Part shown: positions 36,866 through 48,650 of the stretch, piece after piece
Layout: every line of letters starts with the position of its first letter
How positions within the stretch are numbered: position 1 is the first letter of the stretch
NCBI RefSeq assembly: GCF_009676705.1
Contig: NZ_CP046046.1
Location: forward strand, 744,001 to 808,000
DNA: 64,000 nucleotides
Reading direction: 5' to 3'
Source: Spiribacter sp. 2438
GTDB lineage: Bacteria; Pseudomonadota; Gammaproteobacteria; Nitrococcales; Nitrococcaceae
The notes under the pieces: generated by a model
Seen by the model: only the letters and a program-made list of their open reading frames with translations
What the model was told of the DNA's origin: nothing
Database searches by the model: none
Position numbers and translations under genes: made by a program

Positions 36866-37189
36866 ATGGCAGAAACCGCTGATCCCGCCGCACTCCGGGC
36901 CGGCATCGTGGAGGCGCTGAAAAAGGTCTATGACCCGGAGCTTCCGGTGGATGTGTACGAACTCGGCCTCATTTACGAAATCGACGTGGACGAAGAAGGG
37001 TTCGTGGATGTCCTGATGACCCTGACGTCACCCGCCTGTCCGGTGGCCGGCCAGATGCCCATCATGGTCAAGGCCGCCGTTGAAGACGTCATCGGTGTCC
37101 AGGCGGCGGAGGTGGAGCTCACCTGGGATCCGCCCTGGACCCAGGACCGCATGTCAGAGCGCGCCCGCCTGGAACTCGGTTTCATGTAA
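36866..37189 (+). CDS. sufT: SufT / MIP18-family Fe-S assembly factor
   Basis: 107 residues of the DUF59 family. Conserved parts are [19 protein letters not shown] and [11 protein letters not shown], with the reactive Cys. SufT helps cluster maturation or transfer. It is the last gene of the operon, two bases after sufU, and its last 36 bases overlap the converging cpaF-like gene. Confidence 0.93.
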
Positions 37190-38833
37190 TCGGGCGTCCG
37201 TCGGCGCCTGAAAAAGACCGAGGTCCGCGCCACCGCCGTCGTGGCTGTCCTGCTGGATGAAGGACGGGATCAGCCCGGTGGGAGCATGGTGACCGGCGAC
37301 CCGACTCCCCCTTCCGCCGGCCGCGTGGTAGACGAATAGATCATTGAGCAGTATCCGCTCGCCCTCCATGCCATCCACCTCGGTGATCTTCGTGATGCGG
37401 CGGGCGCCATCGCCGAACCGAGTCAGCTGCACGATGATGTCCACCGCGGAACTGATCTGCTCCCGGATGGCCCGGACCGGCAGGTCGAAGCCCGCCATCA
37501 TAGTCATGACCTCCAGCCTGGCGACCGCATCCCGCGGTGAATTGGCATGGGCGGTGGTAAGTGAACCGTCATGACCGGTGTTCATGGCCTGCAGCATGTC
37601 CAGGGCCTCGCCGCCCCGGCACTCACCCACCAGAATGCGGTCCGGTCGCATCCGCAGGGCGTTTCTGACCAGGTCCCGAATGGTGATTTCGCCACTGCCC
37701 TCGATGTTGGCGGGACGGGATTCCAGAGCGACCACATGATCCTGCTGGAGCCGGAGTTCTGCCGAATCCTCGATGGTGACAATGCGCTCACCTTCAGCGA
37801 TAAAACCCGACAGCGCGTTGAGCACTGTGGTTTTGCCGGTCCCGGTCCCGCCAGCAATGATGATGTTGCGACGCTGTTCGATGCAGATCTGCAGAAATTG
37901 CGCCATGGAATCACTCAACGCGCCGGCTTTCACCAGGTCCTTGAGTGTCAGATGCCGCTCGGGAAATCGGCGGATGGTCAATGTTGCTCCCCCGAGTGCC
38001 AGGGGCGGAATAATCGCATTCACCCGGGAACCATCCGGCAGGCGGCCGTCCACCAGCGGTGACCCCTCGTCCAGACGGCGCCCCAGTGGCGAGACGATGC
38101 GATCGAGAATCCCGAACAGCGAAGCCGACGAGCTGAAGCGCAGGGGCGTCAGCTCCAGTCGCCCATGACGCTCCACGTAAATCCTGTCCGGTCCGTTCAC
38201 CATGATTTCGCTGACGTCGTTATCGGCCAGCAAGGGCTCGATGGGGCCGAGCCCGACCGTCTCGGCCACCACCGCCTGCACGGCTTCCTCGGCGGCGATG
38301 TTCGGCGGCAGCTCAAGCGCGCCCTCATTGAGCAGCGCCCAGGCGGTCGCCTGAGCCTCCTCACGGAGGCGCTCCGTTGAAAGCGTTTCCAGCACATCCC
38401 GTTGATAGAGATCCAGGCGCTGACTGATTGCCTCCTGGAATTGCCGGGCCAGTGCCGGTCCGATCACGGGGCCCGCGGGTGCCTCCGGTTCGTCGGCAAT
38501 GGCTGCCTCCTCCACCAGCGCGGAGGGGTCCACCGGATCGGACGCGGGCCGTTGCAGTACCACATCGGCGAGCTCCACCGGGTCGCCGGGGGCCAGGGGG
38601 CCGACTTCCCGGACCGGCTCGCCGTCGTGGAGGAGGGGGTGGCGGGCGCTCAGGGCACGCAGCCAGAGCCCCTGGGCGTCGTAGCGAATCTCGGCGTGCC
38701 GGCGCGCCATCTGCGATGGCCGGATCGGGATGTCGCAGTAGCGACTGCGGCCAACCACCTGCCGGCTGTCCGGCGGCACGGTCTGCTCGAATTGGCCGGA
38801 TTGGGTGGTGATGGATAGCGTCAGCGGCGTCAT
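37154..38833 (-). CDS. Tad pilus assembly ATPase CpaF/TadA with N-terminal FHA-like domain
   Basis: 559 residues. An FHA-like domain (about 20-95) has Gly28-Arg29 (VVGRSRYCD) and Arg45-His46 (ARRHAEI), but the usual phosphothreonine-contacting Ser is Ala43 and the Asn of the NG turn is Asp70. A linker (100-125) leads to a CpaF ATPase (about 130-505) with Walker [10 protein letters not shown] (328-336), Walker [16 protein letters not shown] and the HAN motif [10 protein letters not shown]. About 50 further residues form a Gly/His-rich tail. It powers Tad pilus extrusion. Last gene of the operon, its ATG overlapping the secretin stop (TAATG). Confidence 0.95.
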
Positions 38834-40179
38834 TACGGCGGTAACTCCAGGGGCAATGGTTGATGACCGGCGTCCGGGGTGAATGGCTCGATTTCAGCGG
38901 TTTCCCGAACCCCGGAGGGTGTGGGTTCTGCGGGTGAGGGCGTGGCGACCGATACCGGCGCCGGCGGCGCTTCTTCCTGAAGATAGGGCGTGATCACCAC
39001 CACCAGTTCGGTTTCATCGCTCTGGAAGCGCCGGGACCGGAATAGCTCACCGATAACGGGCAGATCGCCGAGGCCGGGGACCTGACTAACCGCCTCGGAC
39101 TGCCGACCGTCGATGAGACCGGCAATGAGCATGGCTTCACCGCTGGGGCCACGCATTTCGGTGTTGGCCTGACGGACCGAGAAGCCGGGGATGCCCATGA
39201 CGGTGACGGATTCGTCCACATCGCTGATTTCCACTTCCACCCGGGTGCGGATCTGGTTGTCAGCCATCACGGCCGGTTCCACCCGCAGCAGGATGCCGTA
39301 GTCCCTGAAAGACACCGTGGTCGCGCCGTCGTCGCCCTGGATCGGAATGGGGACTTCTCCACCGGCCTGAAACTGGGCGCTGGAGCCACTCAGTGTCGAA
39401 AGCATGGGCTCGGCAATCACCCGCGCCTCGCCGGACTCGCCCAGCAGGTCGATCATGGCGTTGAGGTTGAGGCCGACCCCGAGATAACTGTTGGCCTGGC
39501 CGATATCCAGCGGCAACTGGTCCGCCGGGAGGAAGCCACCGAAATCGCCGCGGAAGACGTTGTTGGTCCGCAGATCCGAGGCCCAGGCGAAGCTGACGGC
39601 GGGAGACCGGGGACTCCAGTCGACGCCGATCTGCTCAAGCTTCGAGCGACTGAGCTCGACAAAACGGGCCTCCAGCCGAACGGTTTTCGGCGGGGGGGCA
39701 TCAAAGTCCGCGGAAAAGTTGCGAATGTCCGGATAAAGGGTCAAAAGGCGTTGCAGCCGGGCGGCATCCTGGGGCGACTCCGGTGTTCCGGTCAGGATCA
39801 GGTGGTCCTCGACAGCGTTCATGGTGACCCCGTCGATCAGGCTGACCAGATGCTGCACGGTGGCCTTGTCGGTGCCGGCGCCGGGGGCATGGACATGAAT
39901 CGGGTAGACACTTCGCTGTCCATTGCCATGCCAGATCACCAGATCCGTGTGCCCCGGCGAGCGACCGAATATCAGCACTTCGCTGCGGGCCTCAATCACC
40001 TCCACGGCCGCCACCTCGCCGCTGGCGATCGCCACTCGCTCGATATCATCTGCCTCGACGATGTGCGAGCGCCCCACCGGGACCTCCACCACACCGGCGG
40101 ACTGCACCGGCAGGATTCCCGCCATGAAGAACAACAGCAGACCCAGTATCCGGCCTCTGACCCGGCCGTGTTCTCTCAT
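38833..40179 (-). CDS. Tad pilus secretin CpaC/RcpA
   Basis: 448 residues: a signal peptide (about 1-28, [19 protein letters not shown]), an N-terminal pilus-secretin domain with [20 protein letters not shown], a BON-like middle part and a C-terminal secretin domain (about 210-400) with [14 protein letters not shown], the classic secretin end motif. It forms the outer-membrane channel for the pilus. A Pro/Glu/Thr-rich tail follows. It overlaps cpaB by four bases. Confidence 0.93.
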
Positions 40180-40964
40180 CGTCGACCTCCAATGATCACC
40201 TCCACACCGGGGGTTCGGTCGGCATCGGCGCGGTCCTCGCTGAAAATCGACCTAGCGTCCACCAAAAACGGATCGATCGGGCCATGGTCGTCGGTGCCAC
40301 GCAGTGCCACGTGAATTTCTCCCATGGTTTGAGCCTGGGTGATCCTGGCGGCGTTCTCGGGGGAGACCGCGACGGTAATATCCCGGTAGGAGGCACTGCC
40401 GAATCCGCCGTGGGGGTCGTTGCCGCCCAGGTCATCGCCGATGGCAATAATCGGCACATCCGAGAGCAGCGGCGCGGTCTGGCGCTCTCCCTCAGTCCGC
40501 CATGTGATCATCAAATCCACCCGATCCGCCGGGTTGAGCAGGGTGTTGAGGGTGGATGCCCCGGACAGCGGCAGGGTGATCGCGCGGTCACCCGGGGTGA
40601 TCAGCTCCGCCAGTCGGGTTGTCTGGTCATGCTCGAGATGACTGGGTAGCAACGGCTCTCCCGGTTCCACCGGCGCCCGAAGCAGCGCTCCTGCGTAGTC
40701 CGGCCACTGATCCTCGGTGATCGCGGCGGCATGCAGGTAGTTGACCGGCACCTCGCGCAGCGCCACGCGCTGGGCAGCCAGTCGGTCCCCCTGCATCAGG
40801 GGCTGATTGGCCACCAGAACCGGCCGGGCCTGGTGATCGGCGCGCAGGGAGGATTCGATGGCGGCGGTCTGCTCGGCCAGGTGCCGGTCGGCGAGAAAGG
40901 TTCCCGCCCCGCCGGCCATCAATGCCCCCGCCCCCAGGAGGAGTCCGCGAACAATCGGGTTCAT
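40176..40964 (-). CDS. Tad pilus assembly protein CpaB/RcpC
   Basis: 262 residues with an N-terminal membrane anchor (about 5-25) and a SAF domain (about 50-115: VLVANQPLMQGDRL ... PVEPGEPLLPSHL), then the RcpC domain with GDRAITLPLSGASTLNTLL and LNPADRVDLMITW. CpaB is a periplasmic partner of the secretin. AGGGGAT lies before the ATG. It sits in the usual CpaB-CpaC-CpaF order. Confidence 0.92.
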   Translation of the reverse strand: MNPIVRGLLLGAGALMAGGAGTFLADRHLAEQTAAIESSLRADHQARPVLVANQPLMQGDRLAAQRVALREVPVNYLHAAAITEDQWPDYAGALLRAPVEPGEPLLPSHLEHDQTTRLAELITPGDRAITLPLSGASTLNTLLNPADRVDLMITWRTEGERQTAPLLSDVPIIAIGDDLGGNDPHGGFGSASYRDITVAVSPENAARITQAQTMGEIHVALRGTDDHGPIDPFLVDARSIFSEDRADADRTPGVEVIIGGRR

Positions 40965-41120: not shown

Positions 41121-41870
41121 TTACTGGCCGGGCAGAAAAAGAATATGGGCCTGACTGCCCTGAGCTTCATGAGCCACCGCGACATAAAGGCGTGGGTCAC
41201 CCGGCTGGCCCTCAAATAACCGGGTTTTCATGGGTCGATCCGGCGAAGGCAGATCGGACGGGACGGGGCGGGACTCATAGCCCTGCATCTGCAGCCAGTC
41301 CGTGATACGGGCAAGGGCGACGGCGGGGGGGCGTTGCGAGATCAGGGATATCGTGCGCGCTTCCTCGTGACGAAGATCCTGAATGGGTTCGAGTCCGGGG
41401 ATGCGGACTTCCGGAGCGATGGCTGGCTCAGTTCCCGCGGGCGGCATCTGGATCTCCGAGAGTTGAACGGCACTGCCACGGCCACTGGAAAAAGCCGTCA
41501 CCTGGACGCTTCGTTCCAGCGATCTGAGTGACAGCTGCCTTTGACCGGATTCGGGCTGCCATTCATCCAGCACCCCGCTTCGATCCGACCAGAGGTTGCG
41601 GTAATGGCTTATTACGTCTCGGGGTGCCAGCTCGGTCTCGTAGGCCTGAAAGCAGATCTCCAGGCCATTGAATTCGGCCACTTCGGTGTCCATCACCAGT
41701 GCCGCGTCGGACGGCCGGTGATTGCCGGCCGTTAGCACCGTGCAGGCATCGGATGCATTGGCGCTGGACGGCAGGGACAGTCCCACCAACAGCACCAGGC
41801 CGGCAATCAGTGGTGACGAAACCCGATCAGTGAACGACGGATGGCGGTACAAAGTCGGTGCCTGCGGCAT
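41121..41870 (-). CDS. exported protein of unknown function in the Tad operon
   Basis: 249 residues with a long signal peptide (about 1-40: ...SPLIAGLVLLVGLSLPSSANAS). The mature part has two alpha-beta stretches (about 45-140 and 165-249) that resemble each other loosely in strand pattern (AVQLSEIQMP; LYVAVAHEAQG). Two Cys (in DACTVL and LEICFQAYE) could bridge. I recognise no family. ATG 41870 follows GGGAGGGAAG; the longer frame to 42212 overlaps TadE without homology. It overlaps the TadE-like gene by 44 bases. A periplasmic role in pilus assembly is inferred from position alone. Confidence 0.75.
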   Translation of the reverse strand: MPQAPTLYRHPSFTDRVSSPLIAGLVLLVGLSLPSSANASDACTVLTAGNHRPSDAALVMDTEVAEFNGLEICFQAYETELAPRDVISHYRNLWSDRSGVLDEWQPESGQRQLSLRSLERSVQVTAFSSGRGSAVQLSEIQMPPAGTEPAIAPEVRIPGLEPIQDLRHEEARTISLISQRPPAVALARITDWLQMQGYESRPVPSDLPSPDRPMKTRLFEGQPGDPRLYVAVAHEAQGSQAHILFLPGQ

Positions 41871-42621
41871 ATCTTCCCTCCCTGAAGACTGGAAAACGTC
41901 CGATGAATCGAGCCGGCCGGGTGAAGACATCCACCGGCCGGCTTGCAACAATCCGGTTGGCCCGGCGCTGGTATTCGCGGTTGGATCGGGCTGCCCACGT
42001 TCCGGTGAGCAGCGCTGCTGAAGCGGTGATTTGCGGGGCGGAGTCACCCGTGTCCGTGTCCCGGGGCGCCTCCTCGAGGGAAAGCGTGACGCTCTGTTCG
42101 TGAACGATGAGCGGCGAGTCCGCCAACCCCAGCATGTCCGAGGACAGTCCGGCCAGCCCCACGCCCGTGGGCATGAATCGGCCCTGTGCCAGTAGGGCAG
42201 CACCTGGTCCATCGTCGCTCAGGCCGCCCGTCTCTTCATGGCCTGGATAACGCGCCTGAATGCCTGCTGCCTCGGTGTCAGTCACCAGCGGCCTCCGGCC
42301 GCCCTCTCGCAGAGCATTACGGCTGTAGCCGTCCTGCTCGATGGTCTCGACGGGCACCACCGGTGCGCGAACATCACCATGGATCCGGTCGCGCAGCTCC
42401 GTGACGACGCTGCTCCTGACCGGTTGTCCTGGCGGAGTTGTAAGGCCCTCCCAGACTGCATAGCGCGCGCCCAGAGTGGTGTCCCGCTGGATCTCGGCGA
42501 GCCGGCCGAGGTGGTCGACGGCCCAGAATGCCGGGATCAGTACCAGCAGGCCCAGGATCACTTCGGTGAATGCACTGCCGCACTGGCAGGCGCACCGGCG
42601 TTGGTTCCTCGGCCGGGTCAC
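41827..42621 (-). CDS. TadE-like pseudopilin-domain protein
   Basis: 264 residues. The N-terminal GSAFTEVILGLLVLIPAFWAV is a TadE-type signal-anchor with the Glu of prepilin-like segments, followed by a large periplasmic domain. TadE-like minor pilins help initiate Flp pili. The body is much longer than classical TadE (about 150-200) and has no motif I can name. It overlaps its upstream neighbour by four bases. Confidence 0.75.
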   Translation of the reverse strand: MTRPRNQRRCACQCGSAFTEVILGLLVLIPAFWAVDHLGRLAEIQRDTTLGARYAVWEGLTTPPGQPVRSSVVTELRDRIHGDVRAPVVPVETIEQDGYSRNALREGGRRPLVTDTEAAGIQARYPGHEETGGLSDDGPGAALLAQGRFMPTGVGLAGLSSDMLGLADSPLIVHEQSVTLSLEEAPRDTDTGDSAPQITASAALLTGTWAARSNREYQRRANRIVASRPVDVFTRPARFIGRFPVFREGRYAAGTDFVPPSVVH

Positions 42622-43847
42622 AGCGACAACTCCGCCGCATTCACCAGTCGCGCCTGCCAGTACGGATTGAAAAGACTGGCAAGGTCACTCTGACGCGGGC
42701 ATTGACGAGCGCCGCGGCAGGCCTCCGGCAGCTGGTAGCGCACCTCGGCGGTGCTGAGATGATGATGATTATCCCGGCCGTCAGTCTCCGCCGGAGACCC
42801 CGTGCTGACCAGCGCCGGAATACGGAAAGCGCGGTTTTCCCGAATGCCCTCCGAAAGCCGTTGATAACGCCGAATTCCGCGGTAACCCCCCGCGAGTTCC
42901 CGGGCGTCGGCCTGGCCGCTCGCCAGGGTGCGCCAGCTCCCCCAGCGCAGCTTCGTCACGTTGTACTCCCCATACTGCAGCCGGTCGGCTGACCGCCAGC
43001 CCCCGGCGGATGGGTTGTCGGCCCGGTTGGTGGGCCCCTGCTTTCGAAACCGGATCAGCAGCGGAATGCGGCTCGACCAGGTTCGACCGCCGGTGCCGAA
43101 GCGGGGAGACCCGGTGCTTTCCCGGCCCCGAATCCAGCGGGAAAGATCCGAGTCATGGTCAATGGTCTCGCTCAGAATTCGGGAGAAGTAGCGGTCGTCA
43201 CGGCCGGGCCGATCACCGGTGACGTGGCGCGCCATGTTCACGGCCCATCCGCCGAGCAGCCCCTGCGCGGCCTGCCGGTAGGGTGAGGGGATTCGATTCA
43301 GGTGACTCATGCGATTGACGTCGAGTTCGGAGCCATACCCGGTGGCGACTTCCCGCATGATGGTGTTGAGGTGCCAGGGCATGATTTCCCGGCGCAGGTC
43401 CAGCTGGGCGGTGGCATACAGCGCATTCAGCCCATCAAGGCCGCGAATCATGACGCCGCTGGTGGTGGCGGCCAGTATCCGCGCCCGGCGGGCCACTTCA
43501 CGGCCCTGAGCCACCGCGGTGCCCACGCCGGGCAAGTACCGGGCGAGCCGGGCAATTCGGTCGATGGCGCTGTCGGCGTAGCGGAGCCAGCTGATGTAGG
43601 CCACCAGATGTCCCACGGCGATGTGATTGGCCACCATGGCGCGGTTGCTGTAAGCCAGCAGGTTCATGCGCCGCGCCGTCCACACCGCCGCGCTGTAGGC
43701 GGCCCCATCAGCGGCGTTGACCACAACCGTTGACTGATGAACCGCCTGACTCATTCGGTGGGTCGCCAACAGAGTCACAACCGTGATCAGGATCACTGCC
43801 AGCAGGACCGGCAGGACCTGTCCCCGATCATCCCTAGTTCTGGGCAT
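42618..43847 (-). CDS. TadG-like pilus assembly protein
   Basis: 409 residues. An N-terminal membrane segment (GQVLPVLLAVILITVVTLL) is followed by VVVNAADGAAYSAA and RRMNLLAYSNRAMVANHIAV, a pattern I associate with large TadG/TadE-like proteins of Tad loci. The rest is periplasmic and basic. ATG 43847 (MPRTRDDRGQ) is preferred because the longer frame would cover the pilin gene. It overlaps the pilin end by 14 bases. Confidence 0.75.
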   Translation of the reverse strand: MPRTRDDRGQVLPVLLAVILITVVTLLATHRMSQAVHQSTVVVNAADGAAYSAAVWTARRMNLLAYSNRAMVANHIAVGHLVAYISWLRYADSAIDRIARLARYLPGVGTAVAQGREVARRARILAATTSGVMIRGLDGLNALYATAQLDLRREIMPWHLNTIMREVATGYGSELDVNRMSHLNRIPSPYRQAAQGLLGGWAVNMARHVTGDRPGRDDRYFSRILSETIDHDSDLSRWIRGRESTGSPRFGTGGRTWSSRIPLLIRFRKQGPTNRADNPSAGGWRSADRLQYGEYNVTKLRWGSWRTLASGQADARELAGGYRGIRRYQRLSEGIRENRAFRIPALVSTGSPAETDGRDNHHHLSTAEVRYQLPEACRGARQCPRQSDLASLFNPYWQARLVNAAELSL

Positions 43848-44100
43848 CGAAGTTTTGCAGCGTGGTCTGCTGAGAGGCGCGGCTGGCGGCCCGGTCCGAG
43901 TCACTCTCGGCGCGCTGGATCTGCTCGCTGCCGTCCTGACCGGCCATTTCCCGAGCCATGGCCGCCGCCTGGTTAGCGATGGTATCGCCAAATGCCGAGA
44001 AGATGCCGATGCCGGCGACGGCGATCAAAGCGGTGATGATGATGTACTCGGACATGCCCTGCCCGAGCTGGCGGTTCCGGAGCCGGGATTCTGCTGCCAT
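43834..44100 (-). CDS. Flp-type (class IVb) prepilin
   Basis: 88 residues. The leader MAAESRLRNRQLG ends at Gly13, and QGMSEY follows, giving a perfect G/XXXXEY processing site with Glu+5 and Tyr+6. The hydrophobic stem IIITALIAVAGIGIFSAFG comes next. The predicted mature pilin is 75 residues with a Gln/Ser/Ala-rich hydrophilic tail. A strong AGGAGG precedes the ATG, fitting high expression. It is likely the major pilus subunit, though no second candidate was seen for comparison. The prepilin peptidase needed for cleavage is not encoded in this window. Confidence 0.88.
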   Translation of the reverse strand: MAAESRLRNRQLGQGMSEYIIITALIAVAGIGIFSAFGDTIANQAAAMAREMAGQDGSEQIQRAESDSDRAASRASQQTTLQNFDAQN

Positions 44101-44173: not shown

Positions 44174-46063
44174 TTAGCGGATCATTCCTGCCGAGCGGCA
44201 GTGTTCATCGGGACTAGCGGCCCGCAGCCAGTGGATCATCGGGGAGTCGGGATCGACGGAGTGGAATCCGCCAGTGAACGGATCGAAGCGCACCGCATGG
44301 CCGGCCGCTTCCTTGCGCACGGCCAACAGCCGATCGTCCTGCCGCAGCAAGCCATACGCGGGCGCAGCCACCGGCCCTCGGCCATCCGCGATGACCCCCG
44401 CGGTTTCGCAGAGCCAGCGAAGGCTGCCAGTGCGACCCTCGGGCACATCCCGCCAGTGTGCGGGTACGCCGAATTGCCGTGCGACCAGCGCTAAGGCACC
44501 CGCGTCCGGGTTCGAGGCCGAGGTGACCGCCTGGTAAGTGAATCCGGACGTGAGCCAACCCGGGGTTGAGGTGCGATCCGGCGGGCCCAGGAACAGCAGC
44601 GGCAGGCTCAAAAAGACGGCCAGCCCCGCCATCCGGTTGCCGGTATGGCCGCTGATGGCAGACGGGTGGCACCGAAGGGCACCCCATAGTGTTGCCAGCA
44701 CCCCAATCGCGGCGACCACCGTAATGAACGACCGGTGTTCCGGGTGGTGGCTGTCCACCGCCATTGTCACCAGGCGAAACGGCATCGGCTCCGGATTGCT
44801 GGCGGCCTCCAGGCGCCCATCCGGCCGCAGTAGGTCACCCGGCCGGCCGTTCTCGGCCACCACCACCGGAATGTTGGCATTGGCGGCTTGCAGGTGGGTG
44901 GCCCAGCGATGGATGGTCGCCAGTCGGGGTCCCGCCGCCAGGGCCGTGCCGCTGAGGTTAACGATCAACTGCGCCTCAGCCTGCCGGATCCGCTGGACGG
45001 TCCCCTGGCGCAGTGTATCGGAGCAGATCAGGATCGCGACGCGGACGCCGTCAATGTCGACCAGCGGCGGTTCGCCCGTCGAGGGCGTTAAATAATCCTC
45101 GGCGAACGGCAGTGGGCGTACCTTTTCGACGCGTTGAGTGGATCCGTCACTGGAGCGTGCGATGCCGACACTGCCGAGCTGTCCCGGGCTCCTGTAGATA
45201 TAGCCGTGAAGGATTTCCAGGGGTTGGCGCTGCGGTGATTCAGCCTCGGGGCGCTCTGGCCACTCCGCCACCGGCGGCTGACGGTAGCCGGGTGTCGCCG
45301 ACTCCGGCCAGACAATCCAGTCCGCCCCCGCCGCCTTCGCCTGATCCCGCCCGTGGGCCTGTCGCTGGAGGATGTCCTCGAGGACACCGTCGGCGGCCAC
45401 CCAGTCGCGCTCCAGCCCACTCAGGTGGGTTTCCATGAGGGCAATCCGGATGGATGGGGAGGCATCGGTGCTGGCGGGCGCGGGCGTGGCACCGTCGTGG
45501 GCACCGGCCAATACCATCAACGGCAAACAACCACTGGCAAGGCCGCTGGATGCCACCGAGCGAAGACCCCGACCGTTCAGGATATGCCTGAGGGCGAGGG
45601 CGGTGCTGGCCTGGAGGAGGCCCAACACCAAATCCGAGCCGAGCAGGCCGAGGATGTTGACGATCCGGACCACGCCGGGCACTGGCGTCGCCGGCAGGGT
45701 CAGGGAAACCGGCGACCCGGCATACCGCAGCCCATGCAGCATCAGGACCAGGACGACGATGGCCGACAAGATGCGGAGGCCGCTGCTGCGCCCGGATCCG
45801 TCCGCGGCGAGGCAGGCGGCGGTCATGAACGGGGCCACGGTAACCAGCAGCAGGGCGGCGATGGTCAATGGCGCTTCGGTGAGCGCGACGGCACTGACGT
45901 AGAACACCGGGGCCAGGGTCAAAGGCAGGGTGTGGAGCAGACGAGGGGTCAGGGGACCGGCCAGCCCCATGACCCAGGGGACAAGCCAGAACAGTCCGGC
46001 GAGGCTCAGTTCCAGCGGCGGCAGGGCGAGAATCGCCAGCAGACCGGCGAGGAGTCCATGCAC
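44174..46063 (-). CDS. Lnt-like membrane nitrilase with degenerate C39-like tail, within the Tad operon
   Basis: 629 residues. Six or so membrane segments (1-190) precede a carbon-nitrogen hydrolase domain (about 205-440) with a complete triad: Glu254 (VWPESATPGY), Lys314 (VEKVRPLPFAEDY) and Cys347 (ILICSDT). This is the layout of apolipoprotein N-acyltransferase (Lnt). Two more membrane segments (445-495) follow. The C-terminal 110 residues (LALVARQFGVPAH ... YGLLRQDDRLLAV ... VRFDPFTGG) look like a C39-peptidase-like domain, but the Cys position is Ala/Gly (NPDAGALAL), so it should be inactive. GTG start. I know of no described Tad component like this; acylation of a pilus-system lipoprotein is a guess. 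Confidence 0.8.
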   Translation of the reverse strand: MHGLLAGLLAILALPPLELSLAGLFWLVPWVMGLAGPLTPRLLHTLPLTLAPVFYVSAVALTEAPLTIAALLLVTVAPFMTAACLAADGSGRSSGLRILSAIVVLVLMLHGLRYAGSPVSLTLPATPVPGVVRIVNILGLLGSDLVLGLLQASTALALRHILNGRGLRSVASSGLASGCLPLMVLAGAHDGATPAPASTDASPSIRIALMETHLSGLERDWVAADGVLEDILQRQAHGRDQAKAAGADWIVWPESATPGYRQPPVAEWPERPEAESPQRQPLEILHGYIYRSPGQLGSVGIARSSDGSTQRVEKVRPLPFAEDYLTPSTGEPPLVDIDGVRVAILICSDTLRQGTVQRIRQAEAQLIVNLSGTALAAGPRLATIHRWATHLQAANANIPVVVAENGRPGDLLRPDGRLEAASNPEPMPFRLVTMAVDSHHPEHRSFITVVAAIGVLATLWGALRCHPSAISGHTGNRMAGLAVFLSLPLLFLGPPDRTSTPGWLTSGFTYQAVTSASNPDAGALALVARQFGVPAHWRDVPEGRTGSLRWLCETAGVIADGRGPVAAPAYGLLRQDDRLLAVRKEAAGHAVRFDPFTGGFHSVDPDSPMIHWLRAASPDEHCRSAGMIR

Positions 46064-46068
46064 GCGGG

Positions 46069-46542
46069 TCAGGGCGCCGCGGCGTGGTCCTCGCCCAGCT
46101 CATGAAGGGCACGGCGAATCTCCACCAGGGTCGGTCGCTGGGCACTCACGGGGGCCAGTCGCTGGTGCTCCAGCAGCAGTTGCCGGGCGGCCTCAAGATG
46201 GACGATGGCGAGGTTGTGGATCGCCAGGACATGCCCTCGATCCCGCTCGCGGACGGCTTCGAAGGCATGTCGGGCGTCTTCAAGGCGTCGCTGCTGGTAG
46301 GCAATAACGCCAAGCTGGAAGTGCGGTGAAATCAGATCGGGTGCCTCGTTGATCAGGGCCCGGTAAAGACGTTCGGCCTCGGCGAGATCTCCACGTCCCA
46401 TGGCCCGGTCAGCGGCTTCAAGATCCTCGATGACCGCATCGGTGCGTGCATTGCCACCGGTGGAGTGACCGTTGGTGGCGCAGCCCGTCAAACTCAGGCA
46501 AAGAATCAGCAGCAGCGGTATCAAACGGGATCGGCGTGTCAT
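46069..46542 (-). CDS. TPR lipoprotein, TadD-like
   Basis: 157 residues. A lipoprotein signal peptide ends in the lipobox LTGC (Cys21), then two to three tetratricopeptide repeats (about 40-125: AAD RAMGRGDLAEAERLYRAL is the first). This matches TadD, the outer-membrane lipoprotein that helps secretin assembly. Being a lipoprotein beside an Lnt-like acyltransferase is notable. It overlaps the DUF192 gene by four bases and ends five bases before the Lnt-like gene. Confidence 0.85.
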   Translation of the reverse strand: MTRRSRLIPLLLILCLSLTGCATNGHSTGGNARTDAVIEDLEAADRAMGRGDLAEAERLYRALINEAPDLISPHFQLGVIAYQQRRLEDARHAFEAVRERDRGHVLAIHNLAIVHLEAARQLLLEHQRLAPVSAQRPTLVEIRRALHELGEDHAAAP

Positions 46543-46910
46543 GGTGGTGTCATCGCCTCCTGTAGCTGCTCACCGGCGGTCGGGCACCAGACCGGCGCGG
46601 GGTTCATCTCCAGGCAGTGGCCGGCTCCCCGGGGTGCTCTGATGACGCGCCCGGGGGGTATCGCCGGATGAATGGCGAGGACCCGCCAATCGGCGGCCAG
46701 ATAAACCAGGGTCAGCGGGTAGCGCATCCCGATGGTGTGAACGCTGCCCGCCGGGGAGAGCATTAATGCCTCGTTGGCTTCCGGGGGGTGTTTCGTGCCC
46801 AGCAGCCCCACCAGCCGGTCTTGAAAAGACCGGGCGCGGTAAACCTTGAGCGACCGGCCGGGCTCCCGGGTGCTCACCAGTGTCAATCGCTTAAGCCGGC
46901 GCCAGCTCAC
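46539..46910 (-). CDS. DUF192 family protein in the Tad operon
   Basis: 123 residues covering one DUF192 domain: RARSFQDRLVGLLG, the GSVHTIGMRYPLTLVYLA core and APRGAGHCLEMNPA. The family is a small beta-barrel of unknown function, usually exported, but here I see no signal peptide. Its position between tadC and the TadD-like gene with four-base overlaps on both sides shows that it belongs to the operon. Confidence 0.85.
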   Translation of the reverse strand: MSWRRLKRLTLVSTREPGRSLKVYRARSFQDRLVGLLGTKHPPEANEALMLSPAGSVHTIGMRYPLTLVYLAADWRVLAIHPAIPPGRVIRAPRGAGHCLEMNPAPVWCPTAGEQLQEAMTPP

Positions 46911-47797
46911 GGCAGACCCCCGAGGTTCAGGAATTGCAGGGCGATCGGGAAGCCGATGATGAGAAACGTCACCGGGAACAGCAGGGTGACCAGTGGCAGC
47001 AGCATGCGCACCGGCGCTTCGTTGGCCCGCTTTTCCGCCGCGGCAAAGCGCTCCCGGCGGCGTTGGCGCGCTTGTTCACCGAGCACATCGCTAATGGCCG
47101 CGCCGGTCTCGTCGGCCTGGATCAGAGCGGCCACAAAACTTTTCACCGCCGCCAGGTCGGTGCGGTTGGCAAGCCCTTCCAGTGCCTGATGGCGACTGGA
47201 GCCGGTGCGGATCTCCCGGCCGAGTCGCTGGCACTCCTGGCGCAATGGCCCCGGGGGCAAAAAGCGGATGGCCTGATTGAGTGCCGCGCTGAAGCCCAGA
47301 CCGGCCCGTATGGACAGGGTGAGTAGCTCGAGCAGGGCGGGAAACTCGCGGGCAACAATCTGCTGACGGCGCCGGGCCTGCTCGTGCAGCCAGAGCTTGG
47401 GGTAAACAACCCCCAGCAGGATGGCTGACAGGACGAGGGCTCCGGCCTGACTGCCAGCCATATTGAGGCCGTGTGCCGCTCCCAGGCCCGGAACCACCGC
47501 GGCCAGGGCCAGCAGCGCCTGCAGGGCCTGCAGTTCGGCGGGCAGAATCGCATAGCCGACGCCGGCACGGTCGAGTGCTTTTTGCAGCGCGGCGGCGCGG
47601 TGGGGGGTAACGGCGCGGTAACCGGCGAGGGTTCGGGCGATGGGGAGCAACCAGCGGAACAATGCCGGGGCGGGATCCCGCCAGGTATCCCGACTTTGCC
47701 AGTGGCCGGGGCGGAGCAGGTCCGCCAGACTCAGCGCGAGCAGCGCCGCGCTGAAGCCGAGCAGTCCCGCAATGGCCGTTGCGCCGATTTCAGACAT
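46907..47797 (-). CDS. Tad inner-membrane platform protein TadC
   Basis: 296 residues of the type II secretion F (GspF) family: membrane segments near residues 1-25, 95-135 and the C-terminal end, flanking a cytoplasmic helical domain with FPALLELLTLSIRAGLGFS and FVAALIQADETGAAISDVL. TadB and TadC form the platform on which CpaF acts. It overlaps tadB by eight bases. Confidence 0.92.
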   Translation of the reverse strand: MSEIGATAIAGLLGFSAALLALSLADLLRPGHWQSRDTWRDPAPALFRWLLPIARTLAGYRAVTPHRAAALQKALDRAGVGYAILPAELQALQALLALAAVVPGLGAAHGLNMAGSQAGALVLSAILLGVVYPKLWLHEQARRRQQIVAREFPALLELLTLSIRAGLGFSAALNQAIRFLPPGPLRQECQRLGREIRTGSSRHQALEGLANRTDLAAVKSFVAALIQADETGAAISDVLGEQARQRRRERFAAAEKRANEAPVRMLLPLVTLLFPVTFLIIGFPIALQFLNLGGLP

Positions 47798-48650
47798 CGA
47801 TTCGGACGATGCGACGGATCCAGAGGGTTGCGACCCCGGTCATCACGCCAATCACTCCCAGAAGCGCCTGACCGGCCAGGGTCGTGAAAAGCTGACTCAT
47901 GAGGGCCGGTTGCTGGAGATACAGCATGGCGCCGATGCCCACCGGCAGCAGCGCCATCACCCGGCCCTGCATGCGACCCATCGACGTTAGCGCCTGTACC
48001 CGATCCTCCACCGCGGCGCGCTCCCGCAGGGTCGCCCCCAGGCTGTCGAGAATGCTGGCCAGGTCACCACCAACCTGGCGGGTGATCAGAATGGCGCTTC
48101 GAAAAAGCGCGATCTCCTCGGTGGGAATGCGACGGTGAAGATCATCGAGTATCGGTTCCAGATCTTCGCCCAGGCGCTGACGCTGAATAATGAGGGCAAA
48201 CTCCTCCGCCAGTGGACGCGGTTGCCGCTGTGAAACCAGTTCGAAACCGCGGCCCAGATTGCTGCCGGCCCGCAGTGAGGCGGCCAGCGCCTGCAGGGCA
48301 TCCGGCAGCTGACGGATCAGGGTGCGCTGGCGCCGGGTGCGAATGAACCCCACCAGTAGACGCGGCGCGGCGAGACTGGCGAGTCCGAGACTCACCGCTA
48401 CGGGCCAGGGCAGAAGTGGCAGGGTGACGATAAGGACCAGACCCGCACTGACGAAGGCCGCCATGACCAGTCGGGAAGTCGGCATGTTGATGAACTGGGC
48501 CCGCAGCTGACCGCCCACCTCGTCGTTCATGTGGCGCTGGTAGCCCTGAATCGCCGCCGGACCCAAAACGGCGAGCGCCGCCACCCCCAGGCTGGAGGCC
48601 GCGAACGCGGCAATCGCAATAAATGGTGATTGACTGAGCATGAACTCCAT
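47790..48650 (-). CDS. Tad inner-membrane platform protein TadB
   Basis: 286 residues, also of the GspF family: an N-terminal membrane segment, paired segments at about 65-100 and C-terminal ones, with the cytoplasmic domain LPDALQALAASLRAGSNL and the SAILITRQVGGDLASILD repeat. First gene of the 13-gene operon on this strand. gshA lies 68 bases upstream on the same strand, so read-through is possible; I see no clear terminator between them. Confidence 0.92.
   Translation of the reverse strand: MEFMLSQSPFIAIAAFAASSLGVAALAVLGPAAIQGYQRHMNDEVGGQLRAQFINMPTSRLVMAAFVSAGLVLIVTLPLLPWPVAVSLGLASLAAPRLLVGFIRTRRQRTLIRQLPDALQALAASLRAGSNLGRGFELVSQRQPRPLAEEFALIIQRQRLGEDLEPILDDLHRRIPTEEIALFRSAILITRQVGGDLASILDSLGATLRERAAVEDRVQALTSMGRMQGRVMALLPVGIGAMLYLQQPALMSQLFTTLAGQALLGVIGVMTGVATLWIRRIVRIDV

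Follow-up and report, generated by a model that had tools for sequence, protein, structure and literature searches.

The window, a stretch of 64,000 nucleotides from Spiribacter sp. 2438, contains a Tad/Flp locus set (TadA ATPase, TadB and TadC, CpaB, secretin and Flp prepilin), all on the minus strand. In operon order, it starts with TadB-like (47790..48650) and TadC-like (46907..47797) proteins, both T2SSF by Pfam, followed by a DUF192 protein (46539..46910, Pfam) and a TPR lipoprotein with lipobox LTGC, a TadD/PilW-like pilotin candidate. The next gene (44174..46063) codes for an Lnt-like membrane nitrilase with a C-terminal C39-like domain, hereafter Lnt-C39, and is the subject of this report. 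Downstream lie a Flp-type prepilin with cleavage motif RQLG/QGMSEYIII (cleaved at the slash), a TadG-like protein (42618..43847), a TadE-like pseudopilin resembling TadE-like proteins of related loci (41827..42621), a conserved secreted protein of uncertain start (41121..41801), CpaB/RcpC (40176..40964, Pfam and NCBIfam), the CpaC/RcpA secretin (38833..40179, Pfam) and a TadA/CpaF ATPase with an N-terminal FHA domain (37154..38833, NCBIfam). An earlier note on this DNA had placed the Lnt-like gene in a pilus operon, after a lipoprotein and before the prepilin. This position was confirmed (TPR lipoprotein at 46069-46542, prepilin at 43834-44100) and the linkage was found conserved across unrelated Gammaproteobacteria. 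The secreted family between TadE and CpaB, also seen at L038:4785-5501, is conserved and had no Pfam match, while the DUF192 protein is constant in these Tad operons, including locus L173, which lacks Lnt-C39.

Lnt-C39 comprises 629 residues and begins with a GTG codon located 5 bp beyond the stop codon of the TPR lipoprotein gene; the plus-strand reading frame is closed over the same interval. An N-terminal membrane region with at least six TM helices (residues 1-200, 45464..46063, from hydropathy and a homolog model) is followed by a periplasmic nitrilase domain (residues 205-430, 44774..45451, from Pfam and the E. coli Lnt alignment), a TM hairpin (residues ~441-500, 44564..44743, from hydropathy, models and the Lnt alignment) and a tail (residues 510-629, 44177..44536). 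The CN_hydrolase family was matched at 3.1e-9 in Pfam. Against the NCBIfam lnt model (TIGR00546), the protein scored 52 bits, below the equivalog cut-off of 132.9, which several relatives outside the genus exceeded (135-165 bits).

The complete Glu254/Lys314/Cys347 triad announced in the note was correctly numbered. Alignment to E. coli Lnt further disclosed the fourth catalytic glutamate, Glu254, Lys314, Glu322 and Cys347 corresponding to E267, K335, E343 and C387, respectively, with Glu254 in a WPES and Cys347 in an ICSD context. The roles of the triad and of the fourth Glu were defined in E. coli Lnt (PMC5500890). All four residues were kept across the aligned Lnt-C39 proteins, with Lys absent from one only. 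The Lnt-like membrane layout, likewise proposed beforehand, agreed with hydropathy and with the model of relative L116 (pTM 0.81), which matched the fold of E. coli Lnt (8b0k, Z 33.1, 444 residues) over residues 1-462. The tail of this model consisted of helices followed by a beta sheet (pLDDT 66-86), and a structure search with its full length returned Lnt and nitrilases only, which filled the list ahead of the tail. The model of the window protein itself was poorer (pTM 0.62, tail pLDDT 43-77).

After the nitrilase domain, the relatives displayed two TM helices separated by a positively charged loop where Lnt has one, and the hairpin is therefore predicted to return the tail to the periplasm. 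Among the nine same-genus proteins, mean identity was 36% for the tail and 39% for the nitrilase domain; being conserved about as well as the latter, the tail is not random read-through. Cys552 and Cys622 were retained in all nine.

That this tail is C39-like and devoid of the catalytic Cys, as the note had it, was borne out through the tails of relatives, the direct match of the window tail to C39 being weak. Alone, the latter had no Pfam match at E<=10. Peptidase_C39 was matched in 6 of the 19 Lnt-C39 proteins, all six from outside the genus (best 1.1e-7), and one relative passed the curated Peptidase_C39 cut-off in the genome scan. With hhalign, relatives' tails aligned to 24 C39 domains at E=1.4e-16 and the nine same-genus tails aligned to those of the relatives at E=9e-6, compared with E=0.2-0.8 for column-shuffled control alignments; the direct alignment of same-genus tails with C39 was weak (E=0.0067, probability 5.7%). 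Among PDB sequences, a profile of the relatives' tails found the C39 domains of ComA and PCAT1 (E 0.005-0.02), while phmmer with one relative's tail gave no match in the same set. In NCBIfam, the relatives' tails best matched two type I exporters, LssB and HlyB, in their N-terminal regions. Catalytic Cys and His were found in none of the 19 tails; the Asp was retained in part. A tail that is not C39-like and resembles the family by chance would suit the missing Pfam match and weak direct score of the window protein, but appears very improbable given the above-cut-off match outside the genus, the distance between the relatives' score and the shuffled controls, and the nature of the PDB matches. 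By sequence comparison, the tail is thus a degenerate C39-like domain, recognised via relatives outside the genus. It recalls the C39-like domain (CLD) of the RTX-toxin exporters HlyB and LssB, which belongs to the C39 family and has also lost the catalytic Cys. Yet, the CLD is a cytosolic domain at the N-terminus of an ABC transporter, whereas the Lnt-C39 tail is C-terminal on an Lnt-like protein, predicted periplasmic, additionally devoid of the His and shortened in the window genus. In HlyB, this dead domain tethers unfolded cargo (PMC8277102).

Lnt-C39 resembles Lnt (TIGR00546; E. coli b0657) in its membrane region, periplasmic nitrilase domain, triad and fourth Glu. It differs by its extra TM helix and C39-like domain, its Tad-locus coding and the presence of a canonical Lnt alongside. 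Several residues also set it apart. Throughout the Lnt-C39 family, Trp237 was absent and a lid segment of ~19 residues (E. coli about 344-362, including Arg352) was deleted, together with a further deletion in the TM3-TM4 region. Ser-Asp took the place of Tyr388-Glu389 of E. coli Lnt in the window genus and in Thiodiazotropha. W237, Y388, E389 and R352 with the lid are needed by E. coli Lnt (PMC5500890, PMC3850990), and the altered parts line or guard its substrate cavity (PMC5500890). Since Trp237 and the lid segment are missing, the acceptor of Lnt-C39 probably differs from that of Lnt, and acyl-enzyme chemistry may have been kept while the acceptor changed. With Trp237, Tyr388, Arg352 and the lid all lacking, Lnt-C39 may not behave like an ordinary Lnt, and the loss of Tyr388 with Asp for Glu389 could even give the window protein a different chemistry.

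A canonical Lnt (325 bits) was present elsewhere in the window genome, a single 1.9 Mb contig, ruling out Lnt-C39 as the only Lnt of the organism. Every well-assembled carrier examined likewise had one (309-350 bits), from which we conclude that the Lnt-C39 copy is specialised. In a tree from which two suspect long-branch rows were left out, a single branch with 100/100 support split the Lnt-C39 family from canonical Lnts. Lnt2 paralogues of Streptomyces and mycobacteria are comparable as second Lnt homologues with some essential residues changed, but they were not described as C39 fusions or pilus-locus genes (PMC3850990). Another Lnt/nitrilase-like membrane protein, TraB, belongs to a transfer system, Agrobacterium-type conjugation; the match of Lnt-C39 to the TraB profile (PRK13825) was very weak and non-significant (E=0.13). 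We know of no C39-like tail in TraB. No published description was found of an Lnt fused to C39 or tied to a Tad pilus.

In an even sample of Gammaproteobacteria, the fusion occurred in 12 of 369 genomes, each time within a Tad locus. Using the TadG-like profile of these loci as a clade marker (14 genomes at >=316 bits, the next score being 149), carriers amounted to 12 of the 14 TadG-clade genomes versus 0 of the 355 others (Fisher 8e-21, ignoring kinship), and the association was maintained across seven families. No Lnt-C39 gene was found in the more distant Tad loci G309 and G401, and, among ~400 genomes of Pseudomonadota, only ordinary Lnts were recorded outside Gammaproteobacteria. Carriers included Candidatus Thiodiazotropha, whose locus shares the gene order of the window. 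One same-genus genome, G010 (L121), is a MAG of an uncultured Ectothiorhodospiraceae bacterium.

Outside the genus and Thiodiazotropha, the locus was organised differently. A Ser/Thr kinase gene followed the fusion in every locus where the contig reaches (e.g. L038:11084-11974, L040:7529-8314, L039:9981-10793), the fusion gene was divergent from the pilin gene in most loci and, where a locus was read far enough, a gene for an FHA-TPR protein preceded that of the TPR lipoprotein. As a whole, these loci resemble Tad/Flp (type IVc) and the FHA-bearing Kil system of Myxococcus (PMC8460266) in their TadA-FHA, TadB, TadC, CpaB, CpaC, Flp prepilin, TadE/G-like proteins and TPR lipoprotein. They are distinguished by the addition of Lnt-C39, DUF192 and, outside the genus, the Ser/Thr kinase and FHA-TPR protein; the Kil paper mentions neither acyltransferase nor kinase (PMC8460266).

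Across the whole genus, and in Thiodiazotropha as well, the TPR lipoprotein gene adjoined that of the fusion. It was also present in nearly all other carrier genomes, and wherever the carrier locus was complete: it was not found in carriers G199, whose locus is cut by a contig end, and G259, whose assembly is fragmented. Every TPR lipoprotein sequence inspected had the lipobox Cys. Within the genus, the fusion was lost in 3 of 14 genomes. In these (G004, G007 and G011), it was cleanly missing between TPR lipoprotein and pilin (L196:8982-9771, L197:4634-5423, L198:10313-11195), while the operon was kept and the TPR lipobox and pilin were unchanged; one or two loss events fit. The Lnt-C39 gene is accessory to the pilus operon, since these three genomes lost it and retained pilin and lipoprotein. 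In G326 and G308, the fusion-less clade members outside the genus, no TPR lipoprotein was found, and strict co-loss of the two genes holds there; as a general rule it was rejected, because G011, G007 and G004 have the lipoprotein but no fusion. Covariation points to no Lnt-C39 substrate.

These observations suggest, rather than prove, a lipid modification of some part of this Tad pilus machine. Our tentative preference, held with somewhat less than even confidence, goes to Lnt-C39 as an Lnt paralogue dedicated to the Tad pilus, acting on a non-bulk acceptor, with the C39-like domain docking a candidate substrate. Its acceptor would be other than the bulk of lipoproteins because the usual acceptor gate (Trp237 and the lid with Arg352) is gone. 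By analogy with HlyB, the periplasmic C39-like domain might dock or chaperone a specific substrate. The first candidate would be the TPR pilotin lipoprotein encoded directly upstream, a putative substrate or partner, and the second the mature N-terminus of pilin or pseudopilin. Such a modification would be useful, yet dispensable for persistence of the operon.

Other functions have to be weighed. Instead of transferring acyl groups, Lnt-C39 could act in the membrane as a nitrilase-superfamily hydrolase or amidase, for instance as a lipid deacylase or as an amidase of peptides or N-terminal glutamine, since the nitrilase triad is common to hydrolases and Trp237, Tyr388 and lid of Lnt are missing. 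We consider this unlikely: the TM domain is Lnt-like, relatives outside the genus score above the lnt cut-off, and the fourth Glu (E343), called Lnt-specific within the nitrilase superfamily (PMC5500890), is kept.

It is just as doubtful that the protein is a helper or scaffold performing no important chemistry, a paralogue being lost in the manner of Streptomyces Lnt2 or BCG_2279c. Such Lnt2 precedents exist (PMC3850990), and the same-genus losses and rapid evolution (within-genus identity of 30-35%) are what would be anticipated. Yet, the catalytic residues were retained over very large divergence, the remaining operon genes are fast-evolving too, and the association holds in all seven families.

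Slightly less plausible still is an acylation of the N-terminus that prepilin peptidase generates on pilin or on TadE/TadG pseudopilins, giving a lipidated pilus whose pilin would be recognised by the C39-like domain. In the window and Thiodiazotropha, the pilin gene comes immediately after that of Lnt-C39, though the two are divergent elsewhere, and QGMSEY, the N-terminus of mature pilin, shows strong conservation. However, the same N-terminus occurred in genomes without the Lnt-C39 gene, we found no Tad pilin known to be acylated and, as textbooks have it, canonical Lnt acts on diacylglyceryl-cysteine rather than on Gln.

The pilus-dedicated paralogue that we favour may be extended to a broader and clearly more speculative scheme, which we regard as rather unlikely in its entirety: one branch of Tad pili would be lipid-modified by its own acyltransferase, with a rebuilt Lnt gate and a dead-peptidase domain selecting pilotin, pseudopilin or pilin, kinase/FHA genes adjoining in many lineages. 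The usual view of Lnt is that of a general housekeeping enzyme. If the scheme were true, Lnt-C39 would be a protein acyltransferase dedicated to a type IV filament, apparently the first as far as we found in the literature, and lipid modification of Tad components would be directly testable by mass spectrometry. In these genomes, a gene called Lnt by homology may not encode the housekeeping enzyme.

Two further observations concern the surroundings of the fusion. The kinase, TadA-FHA and FHA-TPR protein together suggest phospho-signalling in this Tad branch; the kinase/FHA link was rejected as an essential one, as the window genome had no kinase over the cut-off and the Thiodiazotropha locus was devoid of kinase. 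Finally, downstream of the TPR lipoprotein, G096 encodes a TadE-like protein that carries a HINT domain of the pretoxin type in its interior (L081:5311-7503).
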